Shown here piece by piece: positions 22,403-57,086 of a DNA stretch of 64,000 bases (the stretch's first letter is position 1; each line of letters starts with the position of its first letter). Where the stretch lies: contig CM073322.1 of NCBI GenBank assembly GCA_037043015.1, positions 2,243,601 to 2,307,600 of the forward strand, read 5' to 3'. The notes beneath the pieces are model-generated. The model saw only the letters and a program-made list of their open reading frames with translations, did not search any database and was not told the origin of the DNA. Source of the DNA: Bryum argenteum. Taxonomy: Eukaryota; Streptophyta; Bryopsida; Bryales; Bryaceae. Made by a program: the position numbers and the translations under genes.

Positions 22403-22422
22403 CTTGGGCCTTTAGGGGTTAA
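22403..22422 (-). repeat. Right terminus of piggyBac element 1 (TIR and TTAA)
   Basis: Read on the minus strand from 22422 it is TTAACCCCTAAAGGCCCAAG, identical to the left end for the first 18 bases. The right end has no strong subterminal palindrome, so the two ends are asymmetric. Confidence 0.85.
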
Positions 22423-25040: not shown

Positions 25041-26022
25041 TTAGCCCCTAAACGTCCCTAGTGTCGAAAAACGACATTTTGGATGAAGGGCAGAAACTTT
25101 GAAGAGCCATGACTTCTTCATCCAAACTCATTTTTTGACAAAATCACTTGGGTTAGGTCACAAATCAAGTCTAGTTTATGTGGCAAAAATTACAGACTCA
25201 TAAAATAAAGTATGAAAAAATGGCATGGACTTTAGTGAAGGCAGCTTTTGTTTTTGGGTTTTCAAACATTTGGCATGTTTTACCATTGCAAGCCAATTAT
25301 GTGAAATCTAAAATTGTTTTTCATGAATTTTTTTTCATAGGTTTGATATTTAGATGCATCCCAAAAACTTTGTAGTTGGAAGTTTTTTGATCTAGATAAC
25401 TTTGGTGTTGGCTGTGCAATGATGTTTCTACGATGAAAAAAGTGAAAAAATGGATGAGTTTTGAAGAGCTAGATCTCCTTCATCCACCGTTAGATTTTGA
25501 CTTTATTTTTTGAGATGGATTCCAATTACAGTCTATTTTTAGTGGTAGAAACCTTGACCCAATCGAGGATATATTGAAGAATAGGCATGGGTTTGAGTGC
25601 GAGGGGTCTAGTTTTGGACTATTTTTCCTTTGTAAAATTTTTGGCAGTTTTCACGACTACAAGGCTACTATTTGAGCCAAGATTTTTTTTTGATGAATTT
25701 TTTTAGTACAAGAGTGTCTTTGAGATGAAGATGAACAACTTTCTAGTTGCTGATTTTTTGATTGCAAATTTCATGTTGGTAGTATTTTCACTTCAAAGTG
25801 GAAATGATGGTATTTTGTAGCCTGTTTTGCGAACAAATATGCTATGATCTCGCAATCTATGAGGTCCCATGAGTCAAGTTTTGGTCCTCATGATCTACTA
25901 CAAGTCTATTACAAGTTTGTATGGTTGAGATCTGAATAGCTTATCTTTATTTTCATCTATATCACTTTTTTTGAAGATGAGTTCTTGGCTAAAAATATTC
26001 CAAGGACGTTGAGGGGTTAGAT
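25041..26022 (+). mobile_element. TTAA-L element copy 1, flanked by TTAG
   Basis: Non-autonomous piggyBac-like element, 982 bp, closely related along its length to 46587-47605 (inverted) and 56025-57004. The left end reads CCCCTAAACGTCCCTAG followed by the palindrome TGTCGAAAAACGACA. The right end reads GGACGTTGAGGGG. It is flanked on both sides by TTAG rather than TTAA. No open frame spans it; the longest is 65 codons. Confidence 0.88.
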
Positions 26023-28338
26023 GAACACTTATCATTTCCAAGTGCAAATTGATATTACATACACTTTGCCAACTACTCCTAGTAAGTCCAAGGCAACTAA
26101 GAGTGACATTAACAAAAAATTAATTCATTGATACAAAAAATGTTTAAAGGTTTTTCTAGAATGATGTGCTTGTAATGATGGAAAAGTATCCAATTCAATA
26201 AACATAGGCCAATTTGAGTATTGTCTACTTTAAGATTTTTCAATTTAGAAATATCTAGAAACCGCATATTTGAATGGTCCTCCTAATGATATCAAATTTA
26301 TTCATTGTAGTTGTCACTTTTTTTAAAATTACTACTACTAGACCGTGCAGAATGTCATGTGGATGCATGTTGTGAACCAATATACTAATGGTGCATGGAA
26401 GTCTAAGTGCTCAATTTACTGAACGAGTAATAATACTTAATTGCAAAACAAAGACTTTGAGTGCATAAGTGAGATTCGAATATTTGGTTAATCCTTATTT
26501 GACATCACTATTTTGAGAAAAATGTGACCTCACTGTCCTTTGACCATATTTTAGCATAGATAATTAAATAAATTCGAAAATCCGAAATGGTGAGTGTCGA
26601 GCTAACTTCATTCTGTAAATATTTTATTTTTTTAAAAAACGACCACATCGGGTAAAATCTCAAAATTTGCCACCGTTGAGAGTATGGAAGTTCTTGTTCA
26701 GATTCGAGGACCAATTTGGTCCCTTGTGTCAATAAAGGGTTAATCCCGACAAGAAGGTAGTTTGGTTCTTATATTTTGATGCTTCAAATGTACAACCGCC
26801 CCGGAAAGTTATCAATATCCACTATATGTTTACATGGCATGGCCAACTATATAATACACACAAGTGTGCATTAACAGCTTATAGAATCAACAACAAGTTT
26901 GTATACATTTTCACAAGGATATATCATATGAGGAAATGGAGGTATTGGACTATTGGAGGCACGACTCGAGAACTACGGTCTCGGCTTGTACATTGTATTT
27001 CTAAGCATTTATTGCAACATGCAAAAACTTCCTTCAAAGTGATTTTTTTCCAAACAAAGGTGGAAGCATTCATTTACAACATGCAATTGATGAACAAAAT
27101 TTTAAACAAGAAAGTACAATGATCTCTTCAACATGCATGTGGTCTTGACAATAAACTAATATACACTTGGGTGTTTTTATATAATTGGAAATTTTATGTA
27201 CAACATTATTTGATGAATATGTTTCATTACCACTTATGGTTGTGCTCAAACTAAATCCAATAAAAGGAACGAACATTTTAGCATTGCAACACGTGAATAA
27301 TTTACAACTATCACAATCATCCTTGGAAATTCATCTATATTTCAAGCTACGTTTGGTAACCCAATCTTCAAATATCACGATATTGAAATATTGTGACATT
27401 TTTGTAATTATCTTGACACTGTAATTATTGTGATATAGAGTTGCCAAATTAATATGTAGGTTTGCCATTGAGCATTTTATAATTGGATTCTTGCACTTGA
27501 AGCAAATGACGAGACGTGTTGTGGTGAGGATTCAGTAAAAAAAAAGTTCAAATCTTCCCAATTACCCCTACTTTTGTTATTAAAAAAAAGATCTTTGAAA
27601 AAGTCTTGATTGTATGAATTTGGACATCACGATTATAGAGATTACAAATTACTTTACAAGTGACACATTTGTATATTAAGCAACAGAGAAGAAGGTCTAT
27701 TATTCAGTAGTTCAATGAATATGTGTACACAAATAGAACAAATTACATCAATTTCTGATGTTCTAAAAAAGAACATGTTTCAACGTGCCAAAAATGTTCT
27801 GACATGTATGGGCCCAAATATGACCTTTCAAAGTTTTGGCATGTTCAAGCTAAGTATAAATTTTAATGAAGAGTTAATCCAAGACCAAAGTGAAATCATC
27901 TCTTTATTCTCGTGTAAAATAGTTGATACTTTCATACAACATACACAAATTCCATATTGTTTTTAAAACTTTAGAGCAAAGTTATCCACTCCAAGCACTT
28001 CCTAAAATAAGTGTTATGGAACCACAATGTATGTTTTTCCATGTTTAGTCTCATATGAAAATTGGAGTACATTCTATATGATCTAGTCAATTTGAGATAA
28101 TAAAAGATTAATCTTCTTGGAAAAACTTAAATAGTTGGATGTCATATAATCCCTATGTACGTAATAATTTTTTAAAAACTAACCCAACCATACTAATTCT
28201 AGATAATAAAAGTCAAACACACTCTTATAATTTGAAAGCTCATAACAATTTACAAAAAGTACCTTTATATATATATAATGCTTTTACGTCACTCCAAGTA
28301 TAAGTATATACTTGGAGTATAAGTATATGTACAACTGT
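26023..28338. other. AT-rich intergenic, no gene
   Basis: Very AT-rich. Open frames are 100 codons or fewer and unrecognised. The final about 100 nt before 28339 would be the 3' untranslated region of the polyol dehydrogenase, and contain a duplicated ACTCCAAGTATAAGTATAT-like motif. Confidence 0.4.
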
Positions 28339-31300
28339 TCAAAGATTGAACATGACCTTTATGGCGTTCACTCCATTTGCACTCATTTCAAATGCATCCT
28401 TGACATCTTTTTCAGTGAACTTAAATCTATGAGTAATGAGAGGTTTCACATTCACTCGCCCACTAGCCAATAAACTTATGCACATCGGATATGTATTGCG
28501 ATAGCGAAACACTCCAACAATATCCACTTCCCTGCAAATAAACAATCTTCTCAGAATCATCACCTAAATAAAAATCCTTGCTACTAGAACCTGTTATAAT
28601 CAACATTCTTGTGATAATCAACATTCTAGTGTTGAAGACGAAAAGTTCAATCACCAAACAATATCAATCTACGCATCATTCAAGAAGAAGGCTCTTCCTT
28701 CCATTTACAGGTTCCAATATTAGAGAACAACGAAAAACTCAAACATCCTCACCTATGAGCTTCCATTCATCTAGTCCCCAAAGATATTCTACCTATATGG
28801 TAATTCTAATACTTGACAAACACCCTTCTTGCTACTTTATCAAATCACAAGGCAACCTCCACAACAAAATTCATTGAGTTATTGAACAGATTACCTTGTG
28901 AACTTAAACTAAGAAGTTTCTTCTACAAATATTCCAGTGTATTAAACTCGATTCTGACCTTACAATCTTTCGTAAACCCATTCCAACATTGACACCTTTC
29001 ACAACATTTCAAAATCTTGTATGAATTACAAATGCACAAAAGTGTAAAGAGATGGACCTGGAAACGGCAGCAGTGATAGGCAACATCATGTGAGTTTCTC
29101 GCATTCCCACAAGACAAACACACCCAGCGCTCCTCGTGACCTCCAAACACTGCGACAAGCTCTTGGTATTCCCCACACAATCACAGGAAACATCAATATT
29201 CCCACCCATCTTCTTCTTCATCTCCTCCATCTCCTTCTCACTCTCCTCCTCCTTCCTGGAAATGAGCACAGTCTCATCGGCTCCCAAGTCCTTCGCACAC
29301 TGCAGTCGCTCGGCGTGCGTGTCTGCAACGATGACTCTGGGAGCACCGAAGGCTCGCGCTACCAGGAGGGTGACTAGGCCGATGGCGCCACCGCCCACGA
29401 TGAGTACGGTCGTGTCGGGGCCGACGTGTGCGCGACGGCAGGCGTGCACGCCGACGGATAGAGGCTCGCACATTGCGCCTTCTTCAAGGGAGACGTTCTC
29501 GGGGAGCTTGAAGCAAAGCTCTGCTGGATGGATTATCTGTCATACAACATTGCAAGTGATAAATCAGAACCTGATGTCTGATCCTAATCATCCTGCATTT
29601 GCCGTTAATCCAATGCTATGAAGGCTCAGAAAAACATTGTAGATATACTACCACATCAGTACTCATCTAAGCAATCTACATCCTTGAAATCTGTTAGGAT
29701 TAACATGAACATGTAGAAGAATTCATTCATGTACATCTTGTTTTCAAACTCACTATCTTCCGTTTCATCTTGTAAGACATGTCACGCATTTTATAACCCA
29801 TATGCCACAGGCATCAGTATTACTCCCTCTGTCCACAAATCAATTATTTTTCATGATCCATGACTCGCATGGAAAAAGTACATAACCCAGGATCGCGAAG
29901 CTCTCATATACTACGCATATGATACTCCTTACAGCGTTGCTATTGATTTATGTATGTTGAGCAATCCCCTCCTTGTTGAGATTCACACTCCTTTATTTCC
30001 CACATTGTGAATCGCCCTGAACTTGAAGCTACTGGGTTTCTCAGACACCTAAGAATCATGTATTTCAGCCAAGTGCATATTCAGATGAACATCAACTTAG
30101 CAGTTATTTGATTCGAAGCTATGGAGATATAGAGGAATCGAAGGAGACTGACCTGATCAGCAAGCGAGCCATGGACAGGAGGAGTAGCGAAGAACGCCAT
30201 GTCCGGACACAAGTTGTACAGCCCCGACTTGCAAAACGAGCACGTCCAACACGGCACGCCGGGCTCCATGGCCACACGGTCTCCCACGACCAAACTCTTC
30301 ACGTCCTTCCCGACCTCCTCGACCACTCCCGCGCTTTCATGTCCTATCACCATCGGCGTCTTCACCTCGTACGTCCCCATCTTCATGTGCTGCTCGCCAT
30401 AACATAGAAATTAACACATCATCAACATAGATACTCGCATAATCAACATAGATAATTGCAAATCATCAACATAGAAACCAACACATCATCAACATAGATA
30501 CTTGCATCTTACACAATCACAACATAGATACTTGCATGTACTGTGTGTGCAGCAAAAGCATCTCTAAATTCATGCTCTGGAAGAATCTTGCATACTCACA
30601 GCATAGATGTGACGGAGATTATTCAATACATGCAGAAACCTAGACATGCTTTTTGCAAAAAAATGGTTGAAACACTATCCCCAATAGTGTTCAAAAGTCT
30701 GTACAGTGCTTTAACAAGCATGGATTTACACTAGTCTTGTTCCTTTAGAAAAATCATGTCTAGATTTCTGCATGTACTGTATAAGGTCCATCGATACTGT
30801 GTTGTTAGTGAAATAATTCGCCATCACATAGATGGTATACGTGCACTGAAACCATGACTAGTTCACCTCTGTATCTATGGTTGTTGTGCAAGGACACTAG
30901 GACAGTTCATAAGTTGCCTAACGTCTGCAGATTGAGTTCCTCACTAGTTTGACATCACTAGTTCACATGAAAGAATGATCACAGCAAGATACAACTCCGT
31001 ACTTGTTTCTTTAAAAAAGCACGTCTAGATTTCCGTGTCAGCTCCATTAAAACTGTGTCTCGTCACGCAGACGGTACACTTGCACTAAAAGCATCACTCG
31101 TTCACAACAATCTTTAGTTGTTGTGCAAGGACTCTAAAACAGTTGCCTTATGTCTGCAGAACATGTAACTCCTCGCCTAACATCTACAGTTCACATGAAA
31201 CTATGAACAGGTTGTCGGATTTTCTACTGCAGTTTCAAAACCACATCATAAAATACCCATTCAATGTGCGACTTACCTTGACATAATGGACATCGCTGCC

Positions 31301-31523
31301 GCAGATGCCCACTGCCTTGATGCGCACTCTCACTTGATTAGGTCCTGTGCAATCCATACACACTCGATCAGATGAAACTTCAAGAAAAAAAATCTCCAAA
31401 CTAGCAGATGGTGTGCTGTGGTGTTTTACCGAGTGATTCTGGAAGCTTGTACGTTTGGAGCCTGAGGTCGTCGACGCCGCAAATGTAAGCACCACGATTC
31501 TCCTCGGTAGCTGGGGGCGCCAT
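28339..31523 (-). CDS. Sorbitol (L-iditol/polyol) dehydrogenase, five exons
   Basis: Exons 31523-31430, 31344-31277, 30389-30153, 29536-29058 and 28531-28339 join with consistent phases into 356 residues. This is the full length of zinc-dependent medium-chain sorbitol dehydrogenases, which oxidise sorbitol and related polyols to ketoses with NAD. Catalytic zinc ligands are Cys46 (GICGSDVHY), His71 and Glu72 (GHESAGVV), with Glu157 in [15 protein letters not shown]. The structural-zinc cysteines are 101, 104, 107 and 115 ([15 protein letters not shown]). The NAD fold is marked by [12 protein letters not shown] and the Asp205 in VIVAD that favours NAD over NADP. The C-terminus follows the family ([27 protein letters not shown]). 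A leader intron probably ends at 31533 (TATACAG), 9 nt before the ATG. An in-frame upstream ATG exists at 31973 but lies beyond that acceptor. Confidence 0.95.
30409..30540. repeat. Minisatellite in polyol dehydrogenase intron 2
   Basis: Short tandem units built around ATCAACATAGATA and ACTTGCAT recur about six times, directly upstream of exon 3 in gene orientation. Confidence 0.75.
30735..31205. repeat. Tandem duplication (~250 bp) in polyol dehydrogenase intron 2
   Basis: Two diverged copies, about 30735-30985 and 30997-31205, share ordered blocks. Examples are GTCTAGATTTC, GTTGTTGTGCAAGGAC, AAACAGTTGCC or the matching ACAGTTCATAAGTTGCC, GTCTGCAGA, and AGTTCACATGAAA. It is purely intronic. 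Confidence 0.7.
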
Positions 31524-33217
31524 GTCCGTAATCTGTATACAGCAAACCACAGTCAGTAAGTACAAACCGACAATGAAAAGCAGCAAGTGTAACCATGTAA
31601 TAGAACGAACCTCGGGAGGTATGCCGAAGGATGCAGGGATGCGAATATGTAGCAGTGGAGTCGGAGTCGGTCGATCGAAGTAGGTGAATCCTCGTGAACA
31701 AGTCACCTGCACAATTGAAAGGCTGAGAGACACCACGATTTGCGTTGCAGGGTTGTTGTGATCGTTCAATTTATGTACCCCGGGTACATGAACTGCCACT
31801 TGGCCGTGGACGACACTTGGCGCTTGCACGAACTTTGCTCTTTCGCTTGAACCGTTTGCATGAGCATGCGGCAATCCGATCTGGCATCTGCTTTCATTTG
31901 TGTCTTTCTGCATGACAATTTGATGCTCCATTGCGACAGCTACCTGTTTCTGTTCAGTTAATCGAGATTCCAACTTGCACTGTCACATATTATTTAGTGG
32001 GTGTTTCGAATAAGTTTATTTAGGGTTTAAAGCGGTGACTGAGGGATGTCAAAGCTAGTACAGACCTTCATCGACCCAAACATGTCGTGCACAGTGATTG
32101 AAGAGGATGAAGTGAGCTTTGACACCCTCTGAGTTTTCCTACGTGTTAAAAAACGGCGAACTCCAATTGTTGGAAACAGGGAGTTGTCCCTCTGGTGATG
32201 GAATCAACGATTCAAGTGCAAGTTTCGACGTAGAGCCCCTTTTTTTCGGATGCTTCGTTGATTGCGTTCTCCTCTTGACTCAAGTTCCGAACGTCGATTC
32301 CGTCATATTGGCTGCAGAGCGGCGTAGTTTTAAGCAAAATGTTGCGAAAAAGTGGTGAATTCAAGAGTAGAAGTGACCGAACAAAGTACAGTACAATCAT
32401 TTACACTCTACAGCAATGGCAAGGCATATGAGGTGGTCAGTACGAGGTGCAGGCATCGGATTCCTCAGTTAGATCTGGTAGAGATTGATTCGTCCTAGAA
32501 CGTGAATATTTCTAAGGCAGTGCGACAGTTGCCAGCCAAGACGAGTTGAAGGTGCAATTCGTCAACCCACCGAGCCAGATTAGGGATTTTGAAATGTAAT
32601 AGCGAAAAAATCATATTATATTGTCAACCAGAGATTTGCATTCCTCCGAGTCATCCTATCCCCGACCACCTACTTTCCAAAAGCATGGCGTATAGTCCTC
32701 AGGTTGTTTTGAATTGCAATTGTCGGGAGTACACTTTTCTGTGAAGTAGACCTGTCCTTGAAAGATGCTTTCAGTTGAAAGTGCCCAACACATAGCAGCA
32801 ATCACAACTTTTAGAAGCTAAGGCACATGCAATAATTCTTAATGAATTGCGGAATCCTAGGATGAACTGTTCAGGAGTCACAAAGTGAGAAGTTTACGAA
32901 GACTGCACATAAAACTGCAACTCCCAACTCGTTCACACAAATGTCCACAATTTGTGTACAATCAATATTTTCATTCAATATCCTCTATCCGTAGTAAGAC
33001 AAAGAAGTTGCAATGCAATTCAATTACCGACTGGCTGGTGGCCATATCGAAACACGCCGTATCCCCATTTCTACAACCATCCGAGACCGGATTGCAGCTC
33101 TATTCAACGATTCGAGCATGGGCTAAAATAGACTCGGAACTCGCAATTTACCTTCCTATGTACACAACCGTATTATTAATACAACAATGGAAACAAATCA
33201 CTGAACTGAGCTGCAAT
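31524..33217. other. Dehydrogenase leader and intergenic sequence
   Basis: This holds the presumed leader intron of the polyol dehydrogenase (donor CCCGAG/GTTCGT near 31609, acceptor at 31533), its promoter, and the 3' untranslated sequence of the next minus-strand gene (from 33217 down). No other gene is supported. Confidence 0.45.
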
Positions 33218-34249
33218 TCACTCGTCAGCAGTCGGAGTGACATGATGCAACTTCTGCTTGCTCTCACTGATATCCTCATCGGGAAGCGCCACCAGGAACG
33301 TCGGTACGCCCTCGTGATGCTCACCTTGTTGCGCTTTGCTAAAGACCTCCTCAGAATCAAACTCCCCCGGAGCAGCACGAGAGCTTTCAGCAGCCTTTCC
33401 AGCCGTTTCAGGGGTAGCGCCCTTGTTCACTTCCTGCGGAATCTCCTCGTCCGGCAATGCGACCATGAATGTGGGCACACCGCCGTGATGCTCTCCTTGT
33501 TGCGCGTTGCTGAAAACCTCCTCGGAATCCATCGAATCAGTTGTGGTGTTGGGTTCACGCTCTGGCGCCTCCACGTGATGCAGCTTCTCTTTCTCGGCTT
33601 GGATGTCTGCCTCCGGGAGTGCTACGAGAAATGTAGGCACGCCTTCGTGGTGCTCGCCTTCTTGCGCCTTGCTGAAAACCTCCTCGGAGTCGAAGAACTC
33701 GTTGTTTCCGGCTGAAGGAACCTCCTTGGAATCATAGAACTCGTTTCCAGCTGCACCTTCCTCCGAATCTAGAGCTGGTTTTAAGGAATGAACCTCGGGT
33801 GTCACGTGGTGGAGATGTGATTTTGTTTCTTCGGTTGGGAGGTCTTTCTCTGGCATTTCTGCCAAGAATGTGGGCACTCCACCTTCGGGCAGTCCGCCTC
33901 CGGGCGTCGTTGGCGCTTCCTCCGGCGTCACGTGGTGCAGATGCTGCTTCGTCTCTTCGGTTGGGAGGTCTTTGTCTGGCAAATCGGCCAGGAATGTGTG
34001 CGTTCCACCATGGTGCTCGCCTCCTTCGGGCTTCGTTGGGTGAACTTCTTCCTTCACTGGTGCAGCAGGGAAAGGTGCGGGCTCCGCAGAAGCAGGCTTC
34101 GCCACTGCGTGCACATCCATCGCTGCCACATCATGAGTTGCGGTGGTATCTTTCTCCTTGCTGTTGCCGATGTGAAGCTTGTCTTTCAGCTTCTGCAGAA
34201 ATCCAGGGTGCTCAGCCCCTGAAGCAGTGTCGTCGTGTGCGTTCGACAT
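33218..34249 (-). CDS. Hydrophilic PTFL-repeat protein, stress/LEA-like, unknown function
   Basis: Single-exon frame of 343 residues, very hydrophilic, rich in Glu, His, Pro and Lys, without Cys or Trp. The N-terminus has HPGFLQKLKDKLHIG (14-28), reminiscent of the amphipathic K-segment of dehydrins. Five repeats follow, each with a core like GVPTFLVALPDEDI (about 81-97, 124-138, 203-216, 257-270, 313-327). Each core is usually preceded by DSEEVFSKAQQGEHH and, in all but the fourth, followed by LHHVTPE or LHHVEAP. The profile is that of an intrinsically disordered protective protein, but I recognise no named family beyond the loose dehydrin resemblance. A TACGTGTC (ABRE-type) site upstream and a leader intron would fit ABA or desiccation-responsive expression (inference). 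Confidence 0.85.
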   Translation of the reverse strand: MSNAHDDTASGAEHPGFLQKLKDKLHIGNSKEKDTTATHDVAAMDVHAVAKPASAEPAPFPAAPVKEEVHPTKPEGGEHHGGTHTFLADLPDKDLPTEETKQHLHHVTPEEAPTTPGGGLPEGGVPTFLAEMPEKDLPTEETKSHLHHVTPEVHSLKPALDSEEGAAGNEFYDSKEVPSAGNNEFFDSEEVFSKAQEGEHHEGVPTFLVALPEADIQAEKEKLHHVEAPEREPNTTTDSMDSEEVFSNAQQGEHHGGVPTFMVALPDEEIPQEVNKGATPETAGKAAESSRAAPGEFDSEEVFSKAQQGEHHEGVPTFLVALPDEDISESKQKLHHVTPTADE

Positions 34250-35282
34250 TCTTGCTTAGATTCGGAACCTGCCGAAGAAAATGGAACAAGATCCGTGTCA
34301 TAAATCCAGCACCAAAGGAAAGGGACGAAACTCTATACCACAAATCCAGCATTGAAGTGAATCTTAAAACGGCATCAAATAATTCGGTCGTTGATCTTAT
34401 TAACGTACCACTTGTTCGAACCTCAAAACTAAGAGAAACTGAAATCGCGCACACACAATCATTGAGCACGTATTTCATCACGAACTAGTAAAAGCGTCAC
34501 CAGATCTCTACGAAATGCACAATTCGATAATGCAGGAAATACAAACAAGCAAGAGCTTGTACAAATTTCCAAATCCAAATGCACCTACGCAGAAACCCAC
34601 AACTGCCAGAAACCTGAATCACGCAACTACGAATCATCGAGAACATTCTAGATGGGTCACAATTCTCCGATCGTACACAGATCTTGCGACCACAATGCCG
34701 CGCGATTCCAACCAAACAAGAGCACAAAAAACTGACGAACTAGCAGAAACCTGAACCACACTCCCATGTCGCCGCACGTAATTAATTACTAACTAATCGA
34801 CAATTCTCTAATCTTGTAACTATCCGCCACTAAATGCGCACAGGATCTTGTGATCAACTGGCGCAGGACAAATGTACACAACCAAACAAGTAGAGGAAAT
34901 ATTTGCAACAGACTAAAGGAAACCCGAATCGCGCACCCACAAATCGTCGAGCACACTAAATAGCAAGCAAATCTCCGATCCTCGCGTAATTTCGAAGAAA
35001 CAAGCGAAAACGAGGGTATCACAGATCTGTCCAGCACGTAATCCATCACTACCTGGTAACGGAATCTCCAATCTTACACAAAATGCGCACAGGATCTTGC
35101 AACTATAATGATAACAACCAAACAAGAGCAGAGAAGAACTGCACACAGTAACAGACCTGAATTGCACAACCACGATTCCTCGAGCACGTAATCCACAGTT
35201 CACTAGCAAACAATCCTCCGATGCGAACAAGACAAGCGAACGAGCAATTCAAGGGGATTGAAGAGCAGGGTATTCACTGACC
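34250..35282 (-). other. Leader intron and 5' UTR of the PTFL-repeat gene, with tandem repeats
   Basis: A splice acceptor (TTCGGCAG) ends at 34269, 20 nt before the ATG. A donor CTCCAG/GTCAGT begins at 35281, so a roughly 1-kb leader intron (35281-34269) is likely. Inside it, three to four degenerate tandem units of about 230 nt span about 34490-35230. They share ACCAAACAAGAGCA, ATGCGCACAGGATCTTG, AATCTCCGATC-like and TCGAGCACGTAATCCA-like blocks. Long repeat-bearing leader introns often enhance expression in plants; here that is inference. Confidence 0.6.
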
Positions 35283-35443
35283 TGGAGAGATAGGGTGCTG
35301 TTGCAGGTGCGAATTGGCCGGAAGATCGCAATAAAAAACTACCAGGAGCTAGCGAATGTGGAAATGAGCAGGGGGCGGGGCTACTTGAGGGCGTGGTGGC
35401 CATTGACGCGGTCGGAGGATTGAGGCTCGCCGCGTGGTGCCAG

Positions 35444-35451
35444 TACGTGTC
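35444..35451 (+). promoter_or_regulatory. ABRE-type ACGT element upstream of the PTFL-repeat gene
   Basis: TACGTGTC matches the ABA-response consensus YACGTGKC. It lies about 160 nt upstream of the inferred donor of the leader exon, in GC-rich promoter sequence that also contains CGCGTGG. A single motif of this length can occur by chance. Confidence 0.4.
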
Positions 35452-46227: not shown

Positions 46228-46590
46228 TTAACTCTTAAAGGTCCTTGGGGTCTTAAACGGGCAGTCTAAAATTGAATCACAACATCTTCTGGACTTAGGC
46301 ATCATGAATAGTGCTATTTTAAAACTTGGGCATTATGAATGGACCAATCAATGATGAGCTTGGAACCTTCTACAAGTTTATGTACAACCCAACCTACCTA
46401 CCACAATCCTTTCAAAGCATAAAATCACTCATACATATTGTGATTTGAATTGTAAAAATCTACTTCTTGAATGAATGAGAAGAAGGTGACCAGTTTCACA
46501 TCAAAATATAAATAAAAAAGTTGAGTACAATGAGAGCTACAAGGCATATTCTGTTGGAAAAAAGCCCCTGGGGCTTACAAGGACCTTTAA
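46228..46590 (-). mobile_element. TTAA-S element copy, abutting a TTAA-L copy
   Basis: Bounded by TTAA at 46228-46231 and 46587-46590. On the minus strand it follows the TTAA-S body, with the palindrome AAGCCCCAGGGGCTT at the left-type end. The right TTAA (46587-46590) is also the first TTAA of the adjacent 1-kb element. One diverged end (AAGGTCC instead of AAACGCC) shows this is an old copy. Confidence 0.85.
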
Positions 46591-47605
46591 CCCCTAAACG
46601 TCCTTGGGGTATTTTTAGCCAAAAACTCATTTTCAAAAAAAATGATATAGATGAAAAGAAAGATAAGCTATTCAGATCTCAACCGTACAAACTTGTAATA
46701 GACTTGTAGTAGATCATGTGGAACAAAACTTGACTTATGGGACCCCATAGATTGCGAGATCATAACATATTAGTGCGCAAAACAAGCTACAAAATACCAT
46801 CATTTCCACTTTGAAGTGAAAATACTACCAACATGAAATTTGCAATCGAAAAATCAGCAACTAGAAAGTTGTTCATCTTCATCTCAAAGACACTCTTGTA
46901 CCAAAAGAATTCATCAAAAAAAATCTTGGCTCGAATAGTCCAAAAATTTTACAAAGGAAAAATAGTCCAAAACTAAACCCGTAGTTGAGCCAAGATTTTT
47001 TTTTAATGAATTTTTACAAAGAAAAAATAGTCCAAAACTAGACCCCTCGCACTCAAATTCATGCCTTTTCTTCAATATATCCTCAATCGGGTCAAGGTTT
47101 CTAGCACTAAAAATAGACTATAATTGGAATCCATCCCAAAAAATAAAGTCAAAATCTAACGGTGGATGAAGGAGATCTAGCTCTTCAAAAATCATCCATT
47201 TTTTCACTTTTTTCATCGTAGAAACATCATTGCAAAGCCCATACCAAATTTATCTAGATCAAAAAACTTCCAACTACAAAGTTGTTGGGATGCATCTAAA
47301 TATCAAACCTATGAAAAAAAATTCATGAAAAAAAAATTTAGATTTCACATAATTGGCTTGCAATGGTAAAACATTCCAAATGTTTGAAAACCCAACAAAA
47401 GCTGCCTTCACTAAAATCCATGCCATTTATTCATACTTTATTTTATAAGTCTGCAATTTTAACCACATAAACTAGACTTGATTTGTGACCTAACCCAAGT
47501 GATTTCGTCAAAAACGGAGTTTGGATGAAGAAGTTATGGCTCTTCAAAGTTTCTGCCCTTCATCCAAAATGTCGTTTTTCGACACTATGGACGTTTAGGG
47601 ATTAA
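46587..47605 (-). mobile_element. TTAA-L element copy 2 (inverted)
   Basis: Starts TTAACCCCTAAACGTCC and ends GGACGTTTAGGGATTAA, 1019 bp. It is the reverse complement of the elements at 25041 and 56025 along its whole length, with the palindrome TGTCGAAAAACGACA at its right side (about 47571-47585). A local duplication of AAGATTTTTT-AATGAATTTTTACAAAG near 46990 explains its extra length. Confidence 0.88.
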
Positions 47606-47649
47606 GGGTTAAATTGAAACTCCCTTCATTTTCAAGTTCAAGTGAGTAC

Positions 47650-48650
47650 AATGATCGAAAACCGACAGCTAGTTCATTATCAACCGATATAAATAACTCA
47701 TTAGCCGGATGATTCTTGAAAACACCAGCTAAAAACCAATGAAGATTACAAGAAATTTTCTATTCTCTACAATTGCCGGAATAGTTCCACCAGAAACCGG
47801 TTGGACAAGAGACCTATATTATCAAGGATGAAATTATTTCCCGAACTCTGGGTAAGTGAGTAACGTACCTTAGGCCGAGCTGGCGTTGTAGATGCCAGAT
47901 GGCGGCCACTGTAGCGGTACAAGTAAGCGGTGCATTGGATACCCTCAACGGTATACAGCTACTCACACACTGTATCCTGCCGGGCAATGGGTGGGTGCAG
48001 ACAAAAAGCTCGGCTCCCTGCAACCATGCACTGGAGGAGAAGGAGGGCGCTTCCATGTAAGCCTTTTCTTTTGCATTTACTGAGAAAAGCGCCTACAATT
48101 GCCTCGGATGCTACTTAATGAAACTCTTACCCTTCCTAGTTTGCCCTCCTACTAGAATTTGTTTACTTGAATGTTGTTAGGCTTTATTAAATGCCTGCAC
48201 TGTTGCGCACTCCACCGCCCATTCTGTTCCTCTCACCGGCCACCTTCTGCTGCTGCTGCTGCTCCTCCCCTGTCTGTCTGTCTGTCATGGCGCTCGCTTA
48301 CATGTCATCCAGCAACGAAAGGTAAGCTCGTCAATGTTATGGTAAATAGTGTAGTTTGACTTGTGTGACAACTACAATTGCAAGCTAAACATGCCACTTT
48401 TAGTAGGCCTGTCATGGTAGCTCTAGGGTTCGGGAAATATTTTCATCCTTAAGGGCTAAAATCTCATAGTTCCTTTGTCCAACCGGATTTAGGTGAAACT
48501 ATCATGGCAATTGCCTCCTTTTGAACTCAGAATAGAAAAATTTCTTGTAATTTTCATAGGTTTTTAGTTGGTGTTTTCAAGAATCAAACGGCTAATGGGT
48601 TATTTCCATGGGCTGATAACAAACGAGCTGCCGGTTTTTCCAGATCATTA
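47650..48650. mobile_element. Foldback element with ~200-nt inverted arms
   Basis: Arms at about 47650-47850 and 48424-48650 are inverted imperfect copies. Shared blocks include TTCTTGAAAACACCA, ATTACAAGAAATTTT, CCGGTTGGACAA and AAGGATGAAA-ATTTCCCGAA. The loop (about 570 nt) is GC-richer, with CTG and CTGT microsatellites near 48250 and 48280. No transposase is encoded. Ends and target duplication are not resolved. Confidence 0.7.
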
Positions 48651-48779
48651 GGTAGCTCATGGGGTAGTAGAAAATTAAGACTTTCGCCTTGAAATTTTAG
48701 CAACTAATTTGAGGCAAATGTGGACTTTCTTTAGACTCCCTTATTTTAGATTGTTGTCGAGTCGACGATAACGTTCCCA

Positions 48780-49722
48780 TGTACAGTCGGGTACAGAAAT
48801 AATTCGAACTGCATTTGAAGGCAGTTTTTGAAAAAACTTTGAAATGTGCCTGTATACTCAAAAATGATCGGAATTGCAATCCGTAAAAGGTATTGGAACC
48901 ACGTCAGAGTGTTTTACACTATCATTGCAAAAGATTGCTTTTTTTTTGTAAACTTGTTCAAAGAACTAAAGCTCTACATGTTCCATTTACAATTGACCAC
49001 TGTCGCTTTGTGCTTCAATTACAATGTTCATTTTCACTTGCAAAATTGATATGAGTGCCATAAGTTGTTATTTAGCTACTTGAGCTCATTTTTGAATGTT
49101 CAAAAATACTTGCTCCCTCTAAACTTTTGAGTTGGAGTAGTTTTGTGATAAGTTTCCAATCAACACTTAAGGTGTGAAATTGAACTTTGATTTAAACTCG
49201 GCGAGAATGCTAAAAGAATTTGAGTTTGGCAATGAGCTTATGAAAGTAATCACCCTAACTTTATCAAACCATCCTTTAAGTCCTTGTAGAACATTTCTAG
49301 TGGTGTGAATGGCTTCACAAAGTTTTGAGAAAAATTGACTATTCACAAGCACATTCTAAGACATTCCTCCTACCCAAGAAACAAACAAGGAACATATCAA
49401 TGATTCAATAGGCATGAGCTCAAGAATCTAAAGAACAACTTATGGCACTCATATCAATTTTGCAAGTGAAAATGAACATTGTAATTGAAACACAAAGCGA
49501 CAGTGGTCAATTGTGAATGGAACATGTAGAGCTTTAGTTCTTTGAACAATTTTACAAAAAAGAAACAATTTTATGCAATGATAGTGTAAAACACTCTGAC
49601 GTGATTCCAATGCCTTTTACGGTTTGCAATTCCGATCATTTTTAAGTATACAGGCACATTTCAAAGTTTTTTCAAAACTACCTTCAAATGCAATTCGAAT
49701 TATTTCTGTACCCGACTGTACA
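48780..49722. mobile_element. Foldback element with ~290-nt inverted arms
   Basis: Arms 48780-49069 and 49433-49722 are close inverted copies, starting TGTACAGTCGGGTACAGAAA and including ATAATTCGAA, GTGCCTGTATACT, TTTTACACTATCATTGCA, AAAGCTCTACATGTTCCATT and AAAATTGATATGAGTGCC. Weaker similarity continues inward past the listed arms. The loop of about 360 nt is non-coding. A transcript across it would form a long hairpin. Confidence 0.82.
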
Positions 49723-50144
49723 GTAAAAAAAGTCAATTACAAATGTAGGATTAGTGAAAAAAAATCAATGAAAAGCATTAAATTGCGATTGTGAAATGTC
49801 TTAATTTAACGAATATGGCCATAGTAGAGTCTAGTTGATGAGCATGACATGGGTACCGTATGTTGTCAAGCACTCATATTTGATATTAAAGTAAAGATAT
49901 GAGTGAGTATGTTACAGTAGGAGTCAGGGCTGTGGTCATGGTGATTGAATATTTCAAATGTGATTTTATCTTAGACCGACCTTCAGTTGCCTGACATGAA
50001 GGTGATTGATTTGTTTGAGTAATGAAGGTGAAGCTGGACTGGGTGTCAGGATTTCGGTGAACATTGGCTCAACATTTCTGCCCCTTACACTGATGTTGCA
50101 TCATTGGCTAAGTTGTATTCAAAGCTTGACCGATCCATATTCTC

Positions 50145-50514
50145 TTAACCCTTAAACGCCCAAGCAAGCCCGAGGGGCATGATTCCAACAGAATCTTCCC
50201 TGTAGCTCTCACTGTACTCAACATTTCACTCATATTTTGATGTCAAACTGGTCACCTTCTTCTGATGCATTCAAAAAGTGAAATTTCACAATTCAAATCA
50301 CAATTTGTATGAATGATTTTGTGCTTTGAAAGGATTGTGGTAGGTAGGTTGGGGTGGTACATAACCATGTAGGAGGTTGCAAGCTCATCATTGATTGGCC
50401 TATTCATGATGCCCAAGTTCAAAAAGTGCACTATTCATGATGCCCAAGTCCAAAAGATGTTGTGATCCAATTTTGGGCTGCCCGTTTCAGACCCCATGGG
50501 CGTTTAAGGGTTAA
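50145..50514 (+). mobile_element. TTAA-S element, intact copy A
   Basis: Left end TTAACCCTTAAACGCCC (50145), right end GGGCGTTTAAGGGTTAA (to 50514): perfect 17-bp inverted ends including the TTAA, 370 bp. The palindrome GCCCGAGGGGC starts 19 nt inside the left TTAA. Non-coding. Confidence 0.92.
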
Positions 50515-50880
50515 CCCTTAAGCGCCCAAGCAAGCCCGAGGGGCTTGATTCCAACAGAATCTTCTCTGTAGCTCTCATTGTACTCAACTTTTCACTGATA
50601 TTTTGATGTCAAACTGGTCACCATCTTATGATGCATTCAAAAAGTGAATTTTTACGATTCAAATCACAATTTGTATGAAGGATTTTGTGCTTTGAAAGGA
50701 TTGTGGTAGGTAGGTTGGGGTGGTACATAAGCTTGTAGGAGGTTGCAAGCTCATCATTGATTGGTCCATTCATGATGCCCAAGTTCAAAAAGTGCACTAT
50801 TCATGATGCCCAAGTCCAAAAGATGCTGTGATCCAATTTTGGGCTGCCCGTTGTAGACCCCAAGGGCGTTTAAGGGTTAA
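50511..50880 (+). mobile_element. TTAA-S element, intact copy B, in tandem with copy A
   Basis: Begins at the same TTAA (50511-50514) that ends copy A and finishes GGGCGTTTAAGGGTTAA at 50880. It has the same orientation and length as copy A with scattered substitutions (for example AAGCGCCC at the left end), so it is not a recent duplicate of copy A. Confidence 0.92.
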
Positions 50881-53800
50881 CACCCGAAGTCGAAATCACC
50901 CACATTGTGTTCGATTTGTTTAAAAAAATATGTTGTTTGTGTAAAATTTAAACTTTGACTTGATATTACTCAAGATCTGTACGGTGGAATTTTAATTTTA
51001 AAAAATCTGAGTGGACTTATGAGACTGTTATAAACAAGATCCTACGATTTGATTTTTAATATAAAAAAAATTTTGTTCACGGATTCTAGGTATAGTCGTC
51101 TTGGAGGTTAGTGTAGGGCTTATCCTTTAGAGATTAGTTTCATGAGTGATTTTTCAAAAGAAAGGTTCCCTTCAATCACAAAACATGTTTTGTCTTTGCA
51201 AGCTAATTGTTAAGGTTTCTTTTTTCTTTTTCTTTTTTTTTTCTTTTTTTTAATCAACTTTTTTTTACATTAGTAGAAGATTAATAATAATATTGAACAA
51301 CAATATAGTCTAGCTTCATTATTGCATCAACTTTGGTACCCGTAACATTTGTATTTATTGTTTTCAATTTAAAACTTGAAAATTTTACGGGGTCTTTTAG
51401 AAAGTGATTCTTCATTATTCACAGTTGGATTTCAATTGTATATGTTATAAGAAACAGTAACTCCACTTTAAACCTATTTTTTGTGGTAAAAGTTAGATTT
51501 TATGGTAGAGTATAATAATTGTTTTGAACATAGTGAAGAAGGTAGCCTTTATATGTTGGTCACGCCAAACTTGCTCAATCTAATTCTTAGCCTCTTCTAA
51601 CCATTGTGCTGTCATCTTCCATTGACATCTGCGTGGCGTCATAACTCCTAATCATTACAATATCTTGATCGATCCAAAATCAGATATGTGTTGTAGCCTT
51701 TAATGGTGTATGTCTCCATTGTACATGGGCATTCTATATCGCTTCTGATGGAAATCTATAATATGTCAAGTCGTGCTACTATTTGCACACGCCATCTTCT
51801 GGAAATCGTCCCAAGAAAGTGTTAGCTCTCATCTAATCCTGAGGAGTGGTGGATGTTAAGAACTTACGGTAATGCTTGATTCTAGAGAAGAAATCTCTTT
51901 TGGACATAGTGATTAGTCAATTGCAAGCGTTTTATTATTTTACATACACTCTATCATGTTGAACTCCCCTCCTATCACCCATTTGAAGTTTACAGGAAAT
52001 TAGTTCACTACAATTGCCATAATTTCTACTTCATCTTACGATGTATTGAAAATAAAAATACTAATGAAATTCAAATACCTACTCAGAAGGTCTTTCAAAA
52101 CAACCGATCTACAAGGTCACAAACTATTTGTTAGGCCAATATTAGGGAAGATAATCGAAAAGACAACAAGATAGCAATGCGACTCTTACCTCCACGCAAG
52201 ACATTAATATCAAGCTGATATCCTATGGTTGTGTCATGGCACCATGTGGTGACACCTCTCTATAGCTCGTTGCCTTTAGGTTGAGCAACATCTCACCTAA
52301 GCTTGTGTCCCTACAAGAAAATTAAATCCAACAAGTGTATAATCCTAATACATTGAGTGATTATACATTCTTCCAAAAATCTGCATACTCTCCACAACCT
52401 TGGAACAATATTTTTTGTCGTTCTCTAGCTATAGAAGGCCTAAGAACCTTTGTGTAAGTTGTGAAGAGACTTTATCTTTAGGAGAGTTTAGATACTTTGA
52501 CCTCAAAGTCCGTGTGAAATTAGTCGTCGCGATCTACTCTTTTGCATTACTTGTCGGCCCTAATCCGTTTCTTGAGTTCTCTTTTTTGGCGTGATGTTGC
52601 ATTTTGATTGTCAGGTAAGCATTTCATAATATTTATTTAAAAATAATGTTCTTGTAGCGTTACATGTGTTTCTATAGAAAATGTAGAATGTAAATTCACT
52701 ACAATTTTCACCTTAAAATGGTACGGATATCACATATCTTTTAAGACATAGTATCAAAAACATATGAAAATCAACGGAAAAATAAATAAATTAAAAATAT
52801 ACTTGAAAAAATTAAAATTTATATTATCATATAGCAGGAAGAACAAACATTGTGGTAATATATATTTTTTAACTGTAATATATTTATTCTTAAAATATTT
52901 TGTACAATAGACAGCTAACAAATCCATGGTTAGTAATATCACAAGCCTAAGAATTATTGTAATCCAAAAAAAAAAAAATTAAAAAAAAATTAAGTTTCAA
53001 TATTAATATAAGAATAACAAAGACATTTGCTTATGTACTAATGTAAAAAATGTCAATATGTAATAATCACATAGACAATATTGTTTATAATTTTATAATA
53101 AATAAATCAAATACTTTATGATAGAAGACAAATGTTTATTTATTATATTATATAATACTTATATACGTATACTATTTGTATTGAAAATTATTGGAAAATC
53201 TACCACTGTTTGGTTCGACATAAATTGGATGTATTTTCCTTTAATTTTTTGTACATCTATATTTTTTGATTTCTTAATCAAATAGGGCAATCGAAACCTG
53301 TAATGTATTAGATGCTTGTAATAGCATGCGTATGAATGTCATGAATGAAAGTCACTTCCTTTTGATACATCATTATTTTTTTTCATGAACTTCAATGTTT
53401 TTTTTCTTCAATTTTTATTTACTCTCTTCCGCCACTTTTTCCACTAAGTTTTTAATTTCATGCTTAGATAATACCTTGGTTCACATTATTTTGAAGGTCT
53501 CAATAATATTTAGCATTCCTATATGTACATCTTCGAAGCCAAATTTTTTCACTTGCTCCATGTTGAAGGTTTCATCCTCTCAAAACTTCTTTATGAATCG
53601 TAAACCACAGATAAAAACAACCCATGCAAAGAGTTTTTTCACAAATTGTTTATAGATTATGCAGTTATAAAAGAACATATTGACACTTCCATTGTGTCTT
53701 GTACTATCCTCTTAGTAAAATCATATAAAATCGATATTCTCAACATCTATTAACTTCTCAATAACTTCATAGGTTTCATCTTCCTTCATGACAATAGGGT

Positions 53801-54063
53801 GGCGTGGGTGAGTGAGAGTTATAGCTTTCACGCTTCCTTCACCAGCTTTCGTCATCGTTTCTTCTCTTATAAACTTTTTAGCTTCTAAGATCTCATTGCT
53901 TCGTCTCACCTGAGCCTCTTCAATCTTCATTCCTTGTGTTGATGCGATTTTTATAAAAAAAACAAAACTCTTCTCTTTGCCTTTCAGTACTCTCATAATC
54001 TTCAATGTATGCCCTTCATTGAAATTGCTCTACAATAGCTTTTTAAAAACTTGTGGCGTCAGC
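50881..54063. other. Very AT-rich intergenic, no gene recognised
   Basis: Low-complexity AT-rich DNA with poly-T and poly-A tracts (about 51226-51270, 52965-52995). A stretch at about 51540-51900 with more even composition could be decayed retroelement coding sequence on the minus strand, but the frames are broken and I cannot assign it. On the minus strand 54005-53721 is an open frame of 94 codons that continues, in frame, an open frame on the other side of the solo LTR at 54064. Confidence 0.4.
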
Positions 54064-54240
54064 TGTCACGGACATGACATACTGGGTATTATCTACACCC
54101 CATGAGTTTACCGTGATCAGCCCTACTTCTCAAAGACTTCCTAAATTTCGTAAATTTTGCAAGTTCAAGTTTTCTGGAAGGTTCTAGACCTTCCACTAGT
54201 TTCCGAAAGCTTCCTCAAGCTTCCGTATAGCTCTAGTAGT

Positions 54241-54363
54241 TTCCGGAAGCTTCCACAAGCTTCCAGATAGTTCTAGTAGTTTCCAGAAGCTTCTCTAAGC
54301 TTCCGGAAGGTCCCAAAAGGATCCAATTGTTTCCGGAAGGTTCCATAAACTTCCGGAAGGTTC
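54241..54363 (+). promoter_or_regulatory. Array of perfect heat-shock elements in the solo LTR
   Basis: Four perfect three-unit HSEs (TTCnnGAAnnTTC) lie at 54241-54253, 54281-54293, 54331-54343 and 54351-54363. Many partial TTCCGGAAG copies occur between about 54170 and 54445, often on a 10-bp period. HSF transcription factors bind such sites; the array ends about 100 nt upstream of the TATA box. This predicts heat-inducible LTR transcription. Confidence 0.8.
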
Positions 54364-54461
54364 CGCTTGACCTTCCTAGATTCCGGAAGCTCCCAAGAGT
54401 CTCCGGAAGGTTCCATAGGAGCTTCTAGGACCTTACTCCGGAAGTTTCTTCTAGCCTAGTG

Positions 54462-54470
54462 TATATAGAG
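54462..54470 (+). promoter_or_regulatory. TATA box of the solo LTR
   Basis: TATATAGAG in the context CTAGTGTATATAGAGAG, placed between the HSE array and a pyrimidine-rich stretch typical of an LTR R/U5 region. Confidence 0.6.
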
Positions 54471-54680
54471 AGTTGAAGGTCGTTGTTCTTCACTCTCTTC
54501 AACACCAGTTGTATCTATTCCTCCTCTTATCAATATTACTTCTTCTTGTCTTCCTTCCAGTATCATCTTGAGTCTTCTGTGAGCAATCCCCTCACTTCTA
54601 GTCTTTCTTGGTCTCCATTTGAGGTCTCCCCTCAATTCTCTGTCGAGTCTTGTCTTTGAGTTGCCGTCCGCAACATCAGC

Positions 54681-55530
54681 ATACCTTTCAGTAAGTCATT
54701 CTTAATTTTCATTTTGAAGTTTACATTACTAAAAATATTGCGAACACTTTTGCAAAATTTCCCAATAATTGTCACATCATCAAGAATAAGAATGAAATGC
54801 TTTAAGCCTTTCAACAAACTAACAGCATGCACTTCGGATTCTAAAAGATAAAATTTGATAATGCAGTTTCATATTCATTTTCTATCATCTTGTTTATCAC
54901 TTGGGCAAACAATGTAAATAGAATCTATAAAATCATCTCCTACAGTAATGTCTATGATATTTAATATTAATATGACTATTTACCTAACCTCATTATGCAT
55001 CAAAGTGTTTCTGAGTTTTACAAAATAGGTTACTACAAATTTTTTTAGAGATAAATATGTTTTTTTAATAATGATGATATTTTGAAGATCTAGGTTATAT
55101 AAAAGTATTACCTTCTCCCCATTCCATGTACTTGAGTATAAAATTTGGAGTGTTTTTAAAAAGACTATCATAACTGTCTTTGCTTCTTTGACATTTTTCT
55201 CGAAAATCCCTTAGTAACAAATGTTTTTTGATGGGTTTTTTGTAGGGTAGCTCATCAATTCCTTCTCTTTAAGCATATAATTTTGTCATTTTTTAAAGCC
55301 GGAGTATTGAAACACTTTTTTTTCTCGACAGTGGCAAAAACTGCCACAGTCAAACGGCAATCATTCGTAGCTCGCAAATCTTCTGCTTGTGAGACTTATA
55401 CCCAAAAACTATTTTATATTTCTTCAAAAATTTTATGGTACAAACATATTACGGTGTTTTTAACTAATTAAAGAAATCTTTGACTTTAACTAAGAATCAA
55501 TGACGAAAGGTACAAGTAAATAGTTGTCAC
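54681..55530. other. AT-rich, remnant open frame flanking the solo LTR
   Basis: Minus-strand frame 54832-54681 (HAVSLLKGLKHFILILDDV) runs into the LTR. With the LTR and one TCAGC removed, it continues in the same frame into 54005-53721, apart from one stop. The product is not recognised. The remainder is AT-rich with no gene. Confidence 0.45.
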
Positions 55531-55539
55531 TTTGCGGTT

Positions 55540-57086
55540 ATTTGTGACCGACTGTGTCCTAGAGGTGTACACTCCATGTTACGTCGGTGTGTCACGGATA
55601 ATGAAATTCCCGTCATCCTTTCTGCATGTCACGATAGTGCATATGGAAAACATTTTTCAGGAATGCTAACCGACCAAAAAGCGTTGGAAGCAAGGTTACT
55701 TTTGGCCAAACATGTTTCAAGATTGCCACACTTATGTTAAAAAGTGTGATGTTTGTGCACGGTAAATAAGAAATGATTTGCAAATAAATTTTCTTTTAAA
55801 TATATCGTTGTCACTAGTAGAAGAATAATGAAAATGAAAAATGGGGAATTGATTATATCAAGAAAATTCACCCTGGTTATTCTCGTGACATGCAACACAT
55901 TGCAGTAGTAACGGAGTATTCAGCGAAGTAGGCAGAGACAAAGGCAGTTAAAACTAATGATGCAAAACATGTTGTTAAGTTCTTTTTCAAACAAGTTATT
56001 ACGCGATTTCGTTATCTTAAGATTTTAACCCCTAAACGTCCCTAGTGTCGAAAAACGACATTTTGGATGAAGGGCAGGAACTTTGAAGAGCCATAACTTC
56101 TTCATCCGGACTCCGTTTTTGACGAAATCACTTGGGTTGGGTCCCAAATTAAGTCTAGTTTGTGTGGTATAAATTGCAGACCCATACAATGAAGTATGAA
56201 TTAATGGCATGCATTTTAGTGACAGCAGCTTTTGGTTTTGAGATTTCAAACATTGGGCATGTTTCACCATTGCAAGCCAATTATGCAAAACAAAAAATAG
56301 TTTTTCATGAATTTTTTTTACATAAGTATGATCTTTAGATGTATTCTAACAACTTTCTAGTTGCAAGTTTTTTGATCCAAATAACTTTGCTAGTGGATTT
56401 GCAATGATGTTTCTACAATGAAAAAAGTGAAAAAATAGATGATTTTTGAGGAGCTAGATCTCCTTCATCCACCGTTAGATTTCGACTTTATTCTATGGGA
56501 TAGATTCCAATCATAGTCTATTTTAAGTGGTAGAAACCTTAACCTTATTGAAGATGTATTGAAGATAGGGCATGGGTTTGAGTGCAAAGGGTCTTGTTTT
56601 GGACTATTTTTCCTTTGTAAATTTTGAGGCAGTTTTCACCATTGGAAGGCTACTATTTGAGCCAAGATATTTTTTTGATGAATTTTTTGGTACAAAAGTG
56701 TTTTTGAGATGAAGATGAACAACTTTCTAGTTGGTGATTTTTTGATTGCAAATTTCATGTTGGTAGTATTTTCACTTCAAAGTGGAAATGATGGTATTTT
56801 GTAGCCTGTTTTGCGCACTAATACGTTACGATCTCCCAATCTATGAGGTCCCATGAGTCAAGTTTTGGCCCACATGATCTACTACAAGTTTATTACAAGT
56901 TTGTACAATTAAGATCTGAATAGCTTATCTTTATTTTCATCCATATCACTTTTTTTGAAAATGAGTTTTTGGCTAAAAATACCCCAAGGACGTTTAGGGG
57001 TTAATTAGCGTTAGAATAAAAGATTTTTCTTGTAAAATGATTGAAGAGCTAACAACATGCGTTAACATCAACCATCGTAAAACGAC
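55540..57086 (+). pseudogene. Ty3/gypsy integrase remnant, split by a TTAA-L element
   Basis: The part at 55540-56024 encodes the integrase zinc-binding H2C2 region. It has the His part in SACHDSAYGKHFSG and the Cys part in KKCDVCAR, followed by the start of the DDE core (WGIDYIKKIHPGYS, VTEYSAK-stop-AETKAVKTNDAK). A frameshift lies between the His and Cys halves and there are at least two in-frame stops. After the inserted element the same frame resumes at 57005 (KMIEELTT, NINHRKTT). It ends at 57086, where an LTR-like sequence begins. It is a dead fragment of a Ty3/gypsy polyprotein; no LTRs belonging to it were identified. Confidence 0.85.
56025..57004 (+). mobile_element. TTAA-L element copy 3, inserted in the gypsy integrase remnant
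   Basis: Bounded by TTAA at 56025-56028 and 57001-57004; 980 bp. Left end TTAACCCCTAAACGTCC and right end GGACGTTTAGGGGTTAA are perfect 17-bp inverted ends. The palindrome TGTCGAAAAACGACA starts 17 nt inside the left TTAA. Removing the element and one TTAA rejoins the interrupted integrase frame (...AAGATTTTAATTAGCG...), which proves the TTAA target duplication. Confidence 0.93.

Follow-up and report, generated by a model that had tools for sequence, protein, structure and literature searches.

TTAA-flanked miniature elements and their probable piggyBac partners in a 64-kb genomic window

The 64-kb stretch of DNA analysed here (the window; bases 2,243,601-2,307,600 of contig C2) contains copies of two repeat families, together with a full-size piggyBac element. 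Both families are non-coding and have ~13-bp inverted tips at TTAA; L measures ~980 bp and S ~370 bp. Which transposase moves such repeats, and is it the one encoded by the element lying among them? The first-pass annotation had matched both families to the ends of that element and proposed a piggyBac-driven system of miniature inverted-repeat transposable elements (MITEs). Having searched the genome (258.8 Mb, 25 contigs), we conclude with good confidence that it contains cut-and-paste transposons of the piggyBac superfamily, which mobilise several families of MITEs, the host being a probable plant. The annotation is thus right on the kind of system, as borne out by the TTAA target, the empty sites with a single 4-bp sequence, the piggyBac transposases of elements with the same tips and the high copy number, and wrong on which element fits which family.

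Miniature elements in the window and through the genome

The L and S copies of the window are as follows.

25041..26020, + strand: L MITE, 89% identity to the copy at 56025; TTAG on both flanks
46587..47605, - strand: L MITE, 1019 bp, 85% identity to the copy at 56025
46680..46687, + strand: CAACCGTA box in the L copy at 46587, position 94 from the tip at 46587
56025..57004, + strand: L MITE, 980 bp, two perfect tips; CAACCGTA box not conserved
50145..50514, + strand: S MITE, 370 bp, two perfect tips; subterminal palindrome and GTCAAACTGGTCA box at 98
50511..50880, + strand: S MITE, 370 bp, one tip with one mismatch
46228..46590, - strand: S-type copy with a GGTCC tip, one tip eroded
5410..5771, - strand: S copy truncated at one end, with a degenerate tip at 5410 on the other
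6025..6372, - strand: decayed S copy, no intact tips

Among the annotated L copies, those at 46587-47605 and 56025-57004 are flanked by TTAA, whereas the one at 25041 is real but flanked by TTAG, as if it had been inserted into a non-canonical target. The 46587..47605 copy has one mismatch in the tip at 47605, and its TTAA is common with the S-type copy at its left. The annotated S copies at 50145-50514 and 50511-50880 were retained, and these two have one TTAA in common; those at 5410 and 6029, on the other hand, lack intact tips, and the one at 46228-46590 belongs to another subfamily, being nearer to S2 (88%) than to S (86%). The 5410 copy aligns solely to S bases 124-370, and the copy annotated at 6029-6395 aligns to S at 6050-6352 and to S2 at 6025-6372. 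No stop-to-stop open reading frame (ORF) of at least 200 amino acids overlaps any of the L or S copies listed.

In the whole genome, the 17-base tip pattern including TTAA has 7,854 exact matches (3,949 + 3,905) and the reversed control none, while the 13-base tip without TTAA has 8,806 matches with 530 in the reversed control. Hence TTAA is present on 7,854 of the 8,806 tips, or on ~95% once the background of 530 is subtracted, and the flanking TTAA reported for the window copies holds genome-wide. The count of copies that the annotation had called for gave 767 S copies with two perfect tips 320-350 bp apart and, among the best 40 of 7,510 candidates scored, at least 40 full-length L copies, the window's own included, which have 97-100% identity and lie on many contigs; this identity suggests that L spread recently. 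A further, 268-bp family (XS) has 409 copies with two perfect tips 215-245 bp apart. We also fetched 40 loci, namely every exact tip listed on the first 16.55 Mb of contig C1; a partner tip with at most two mismatches was observed at 32 of them, one of which (L015) is doubtful.

Empty sites were found for four insertions (one full element with CGCCC tips, two L copies and one copy of the L2 family) in five alignments, with uninterrupted relatives of ~74-90% identity. In all five the junction consists of four bases, which are TTAA in three cases and changed in two (ATAA, CCAA). Thus TTAA is the duplicated target and lies outside the tip proper, and the target is that of the piggyBac superfamily. 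For an S insertion, the joined flanks gave nine near-full-length matches at 81-90%, six of them without net length change, and none of the nine contains an element-sized insert. S copies ending in TTTT were considered as insertions into another target and rejected: the five copies have the same flanks and go back to a single insertion that was multiplied as part of a larger repeat, of which insert-free relatives exist.

The terminal inverted repeats (TIRs) are ~13 bp long, or 17 bp with TTAA; S-type tips begin with CCCT, and L-type and GGCCC tips with CCCC. In the text available to us of a study of coral elements, piggyBac TIRs are given as 12-19 bp with a CC[C/T]T terminal motif (PMC2872659); the start of S-type tips agrees with this motif, and that of L-type and GGCCC tips does not agree with it letter for letter. 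The miniature families are short, lack a transposase, have TIRs and a target-site duplication, and occur in high copy number, and hence are MITEs. The same core tips delimit other non-coding, TTAA-flanked elements at the fetched loci:

locus L013, 2807-3160: further element, 354 bp
locus L021, 539-1088, and locus L027, 503-1051: 550-bp family
locus L046, 477-912: 436-bp family
locus L032, 514-593: 80-bp element

Full elements and the families that resemble them

The transposase-bearing features of the window are listed below.

16718..22422, + strand: full-size piggyBac element, 5705 bp, perfect tips TTAACCCCTAAAGGCCC, GGCCC lineage
18227..19774, + strand: transposase frame 1, which covers the N-terminal part and the beginning of DDE_Tnp_1_7 (PF13843, 1.6e-18)
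19732..20586, + strand: transposase frame 2, remaining catalytic domain (PF13843, 1.3e-47)
20403..20975, + strand: transposase frame 3, cysteine-rich C-terminal segment recognized by eye; no Pfam match
22301..22308, - strand: CAACCGTA box of the full element, at position 115 counted from its downstream tip
61667..63922, + strand: second piggyBac transposase, frames 61667-63016 and 63017-63922 with one in-frame stop between them

The full element at 16718-22422 was confirmed, having perfect tips and PF13843 transposase sequence inside, and the product of frame 2 matches solved structures of the piggyBac and piggyBat transposases. Since the transposase domain is split across overlapping frames, this copy is probably inactive. 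For the second transposase, the downstream tip of the element (TTAACCCCTAAATATCC) lies beyond the window end; its left end was looked for and not found. Tandem-like repeats of ~60-75 bp, seen as self-matches, occupy 20978-21275, 3' of the transposase frames in the full element.

The match of both families to this element was not upheld. The tip letters differ (full element ...AAAGGCCC, L ...AAACGTCC, S ...AAACGCCC), and beyond the core TTAACCC[CT]TAAA L and S resemble two other lineages, one each. As a direct source of L or S the window element was rejected, its upstream end scoring near chance (z 2.2 for L and 0.7 for S in the comparison described below).

The first of these lineages has CGCCC tips. 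Its full element at locus L050 is 5,199 bp long, has tips identical to those of S and encodes an 897-amino-acid ORF with the whole PF13843 domain; this transposase aligns with Trichoplusia ni (T. ni) piggyBac, and with piggyBat to the C-terminal end, cysteine-rich domain included. The second lineage, with CGTCC tips, is represented by C2:7740885-7746675 (5,791 bp), where a 1,058-amino-acid ORF encodes a PF13843 transposase with a similar Cys/His segment, seen by eye. Thus the transposases accompanying both kinds of tip are of the piggyBac type and not of an unrelated one. The same-tip partner that the annotation expected for each family was found for S, at L050, and in part for L: one tip of the C2 element is identical, but the other has CCCT for CCCC. 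Full elements with the same tips exist for S (L050) and for XS (the window element).

Transposase matches were observed on contigs C1-C11 (the best 116 of 775 candidate places were scored), and the matched domain is free of stops in 93 of these 116, counted by rows in what is a top-scoring and hence flattering subset. These transposases have PF13843 and, by alignments with structures 6x67 and 9c0f, its conserved aspartates, among them the presumed catalytic ones, as in piggyBac; by the L050-piggyBat alignment, the C-terminal cysteine-rich domain of piggyBac transposases is present as well. Ten downstream flanks from the transposase list comprise seven with the exact core, one with a mismatch and two ambiguous ones. 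In the seven exact cases the core is followed by AATCC (twice), TGCTC, TGTTT, ATTCC, AAACC and CGTCC, so many lineages have only the core in common.

To compare ends, bases 18-92 of upstream or downstream ends were aligned globally and expressed as z-scores against 1,000 shuffles, the upstream end being that on the transposase N-terminal side. Both ends were available for four full elements, and the best match is the best among these four. The L upstream end matches the CGTCC element (z 8.2), as do the upstream end of L2 (z 4.4) and the 436-bp family (z 5.4). For the S upstream end the matches are the two elements with CGCCC tips, at z 6.0 and z 4.0, and for that of XS the GGCCC element of the window (z 6.7), where XS itself has no copy. 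Local alignment likewise assigns S to the CGCCC elements, with z 8.3 and z 6.4. By comparison of sequences, the CGCCC elements and S, and likewise the CGTCC element and L, thus have tip letters and subterminal sequence in common, and XS and the GGCCC element tip letters and the upstream end.

Palindrome and inner boxes of the ends

For each end we counted palindromes with tied centres listed. In 11 of 13 upstream ends bp 25.0 is the untied centre of the best inverted repeat. Summed over the ends, the profile reaches 70 there and 18 at the next centre, and 300 shuffles never gave more than 28. The best palindrome is at bp 25 in none of the 18 downstream ends. With one end taken from each of four groups, as the ends are not all independent, the values are 24 and 6. 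The strongest bp-25 palindrome (score 9) is that of the 550-bp family, which was oriented by its own palindrome, so that the result is circular for this family.

Within the S group, 15 distinct variants of the palindrome, picked by hand, show pairing in 93% of cells, and both sides change in four of seven pairs. The covariation score was reached by none of 500 shuffles, the number of pairs changed on both sides by 34 of 500, and the further pair types by 134 of 500. When the arms are slid, pairing falls to at most 56%. The palindrome spans bp 17-33 and hence occupies the same place as the site in T. ni piggyBac where, according to the portion of the report consulted, a dimer of cysteine-rich domains binds bp 17-33 of one end (PMC7351741).

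Farther inside, with positions counted from the first T of TTAA, the downstream ends of CCCC-type full elements contain the exact CAACCGTA box in nine of nine cases, at positions 105-116. It is found in none of three CGCCC-type downstream ends, one of them read over 96 bases alone, and in none of four upstream ends; ~10% of shuffled ends show it within one mismatch. Among the miniatures, XS has it at 105 and the 436-bp family, with one mismatch, at 107, while in L/L2 copies it is exact at 94 in 10 of 17, and AACCGTA is present in 13 of 17. The pattern of tip plus box has 3,231 matches genome-wide, as compared with 13 when the spacing is shifted by 48 and 50 with the CCCT core. In 100 listed places of the 3,231, the box lies at 95-97 (15), 103-107 (48), 114-119 (36) and 122 (1), a spacing that is only suggestive of steps of about one helical turn, as copies of a family are not independent. 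The CGCCC-type elements have another box, GTCAAAYTGGTCA, in the upstream end, 98-99 from the tip: it is exact at 98 in both CGCCC full elements and exact in 12 of 19 S-type copies, and if up to three mismatches are allowed, 18 of the 19 have it at 98-99. As a plain count, it has 1,569 matches genome-wide.

What the end signals may mean

There are several possible accounts of these signals. From the same-tip relations we infer that MITEs are mobilised in trans by full elements with the same tips. The transposase core would read the tip common to all families; by analogy, a dimer of the C-terminal cysteine-rich domain would read the bp-25 palindrome of the upstream end; the inner box, CAACCGTA downstream in the CCCC type and GTCAAAYTGGTCA upstream in the CGCCC type, might help to pair the two ends; and each MITE would be assigned to its transposase by the tip letters together with the palindrome. 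A bolder reading, somewhat less likely than not, is that piggyBac has radiated and diversified in a plant genome, with recent activity, and that MITE families would be linked to full-element lineages through an address code that changes: the tip letters and the bp-25 palindrome, its arms co-evolving with the cysteine-rich domain, and an inner box kept on one helix face in ~10-bp steps.

A number of observations weigh against our main explanation. No partner tip is present at 8 of the 40 sampled C1 loci, both transposases of the window are broken, the full elements with both ends read number just four, and no transposition was observed. The CGTCC full element, the proposed partner of L, has a palindrome score of 0 at bp 25, and the GGTCC form of XS scores merely 3. 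Single palindromes are mostly no better than shuffles (p 0.03-0.68, with one at 0.0); it is the common position of the palindromes that goes beyond shuffles, not most single ones. As to the alignments, the best shuffle is not reached by the downstream end of S, at z 2.8 and z 3.6, nor by the weaker of the S upstream comparisons; in local alignment L scores z 1.5 with the CGTCC element, its best hit being another lineage (z 3.9); and the XS downstream end comes closest, in local alignment, to the CGTCC element (z 13.9) and to others, so the pairing is mixed, the nearness to the CGTCC element being due to the inner box (25 of 26 bases).

If any piggyBac transposase of the genome could move all the MITEs through the core TTAACCC[CT]TAAA, the tip letters and palindromes would reflect ancestry only. 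The 12-base core common to all families fits this, as do the mixed ends of XS (upstream like the GGCCC element, downstream like the CGTCC and other elements) and L2, which has CGCCC tips and yet an upstream end resembling the CGTCC element. However, the position and pairing of the palindrome are kept while its letters change, which ancestry alone does not require, and we consider this account rather unlikely. Less probable still is that the fixed palindrome and the inner boxes are signals for transcription or host proteins rather than transposase sites: the CAACCGTA box does lie on the downstream side of the gene, a possible location for a signal of 3' processing or antisense transcription, but MITEs without any gene keep palindrome and boxes at the same distance from the tip, and the palindrome covers the bp 17-33 that are bound by cysteine-rich domains in T. 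ni piggyBac, as described in the part of that report at hand (PMC7351741). Finally, that L and S are ancient and multiplied through the duplication of larger repeats rather than by transposition is very improbable, since this applies to some copies (the five S copies with the same flanks, and likewise two L2 copies) while the majority of those sampled lie between unrelated flanks, TTAA being present on either side, uninterrupted relatives exist for four insertion sites, and L copies of 97-100% identity are dispersed over many contigs.

Apart from these questions, we note some features of the host and of the remaining window. Contigs C1-C4 measure 44.1, 34.6, 30.6 and 28.7 Mb, and C5, C7, C8 and C9 measure 22.2, 18.7, 18.5 and 17.0 Mb. 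Although C1 makes up 17% of the genome, it has only 9 of the 767 intact S copies and 5 of the 409 XS copies, 71 of the 3,231 tip-plus-box matches and 5 of the 116 transposase matches; being poor in these elements, it might be a sex chromosome or an otherwise unusual one. The LEAFY SAM domain, which we take to mark streptophyte plants, has five matches above the cut-off genome-wide, one strong (best 1.1e-28) and four weak, at C5:15178943, C9:6647737 and 6652751 (5 kb apart), C10:4785982 and C3:17027128. These matches suggest a plant host, which would probably be a land plant and might be a bryophyte of ~11 chromosomes. In the window, Rfam and tRNA scans of the 64 kb gave no match, and two other frames were observed:

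13923-14849, - strand: TAXi-type aspartic protease domains PF14541, PF14543 and PF00026; probably a host gene
33218-34255, - strand: 345-amino-acid frame with repeated HEGVPTFLVALPDEDI-like motifs; SelR match below threshold only

Comparison with known systems

piggyBac is a widely used genome-engineering tool. Many natural variants of its ends, in which the letters of the palindrome differ but not its position and pairing, allow one to ask which bases are read, which part of the transposase reads them, and what keeps MITEs matched to the elements that help them move; miniatures bearing the end signals of different full-element groups are a means to study the recognition of self-DNA. T. ni piggyBac, in the sections of its description seen (PMC7351741), has the same TTAA target with a 4-bp duplication, a DDD transposase with a C-terminal cysteine-rich domain, and asymmetric ends with a palindrome at bp 17-33 of one end. 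In contrast to it, the palindrome here is on the upstream end only, among the ends read, and varies between lineages; the elements are 5-6 kb long with ORFs of ~900-1,060 amino acids (594 in T. ni piggyBac), and inner boxes lie ~95-118 bases from TTAA. The piggyBat transposase of Myotis lucifugus aligns with that of L050 from the catalytic into the cysteine-rich domain, and near its tips, too, an imperfect palindrome is reported, in the excerpt considered, to be bound by the cysteine-rich domains of piggyBat (PMC11707139). However, in piggyBat the palindrome occurs three times on one end, whereas here a single position prevails, with an unrelated sequence. Plant MITEs such as Stowaway and Tourist/mPing are likewise small, non-coding and multiplied by a transposase acting in trans, but, unlike the MITEs considered here, depend on Tc1/mariner and PIF/Harbinger.

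As regards plants, the excerpted text of a 2022 review of land-plant transposons names six TIR superfamilies, piggyBac not among them (PMC9033089), while the corresponding lines of another review name PiggyBac among plant superfamilies without an example (PMC10794571). Passages from two animal papers state its occurrence in plants without detail (PMC10813416, PMC10140906), and the genome table of the fern Ceratopteris, as extracted, gives 1,230 PiggyBac copies, <0.01% (PMC6890710). Native piggyBac elements of a bryophyte are not described among the literature matches listed, and we do not claim that they are absent from print.

The nearest precedent, judging from the portion of the article available, is that of the coral piggyBac MITEs (CMITEs), which are TTAA-flanked, have tips and weak subterminal similarity in common with a piggyBac element, and also occur as head-to-tail copies with a common TTAA (PMC2872659). 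They have an animal host, whereas here several MITE families stand against several full-element lineages in one genome. Thus the kind of system is already known, and what is new here is its host and scale, the pairing of several lineages, and the end signal that is fixed in position and co-varies.

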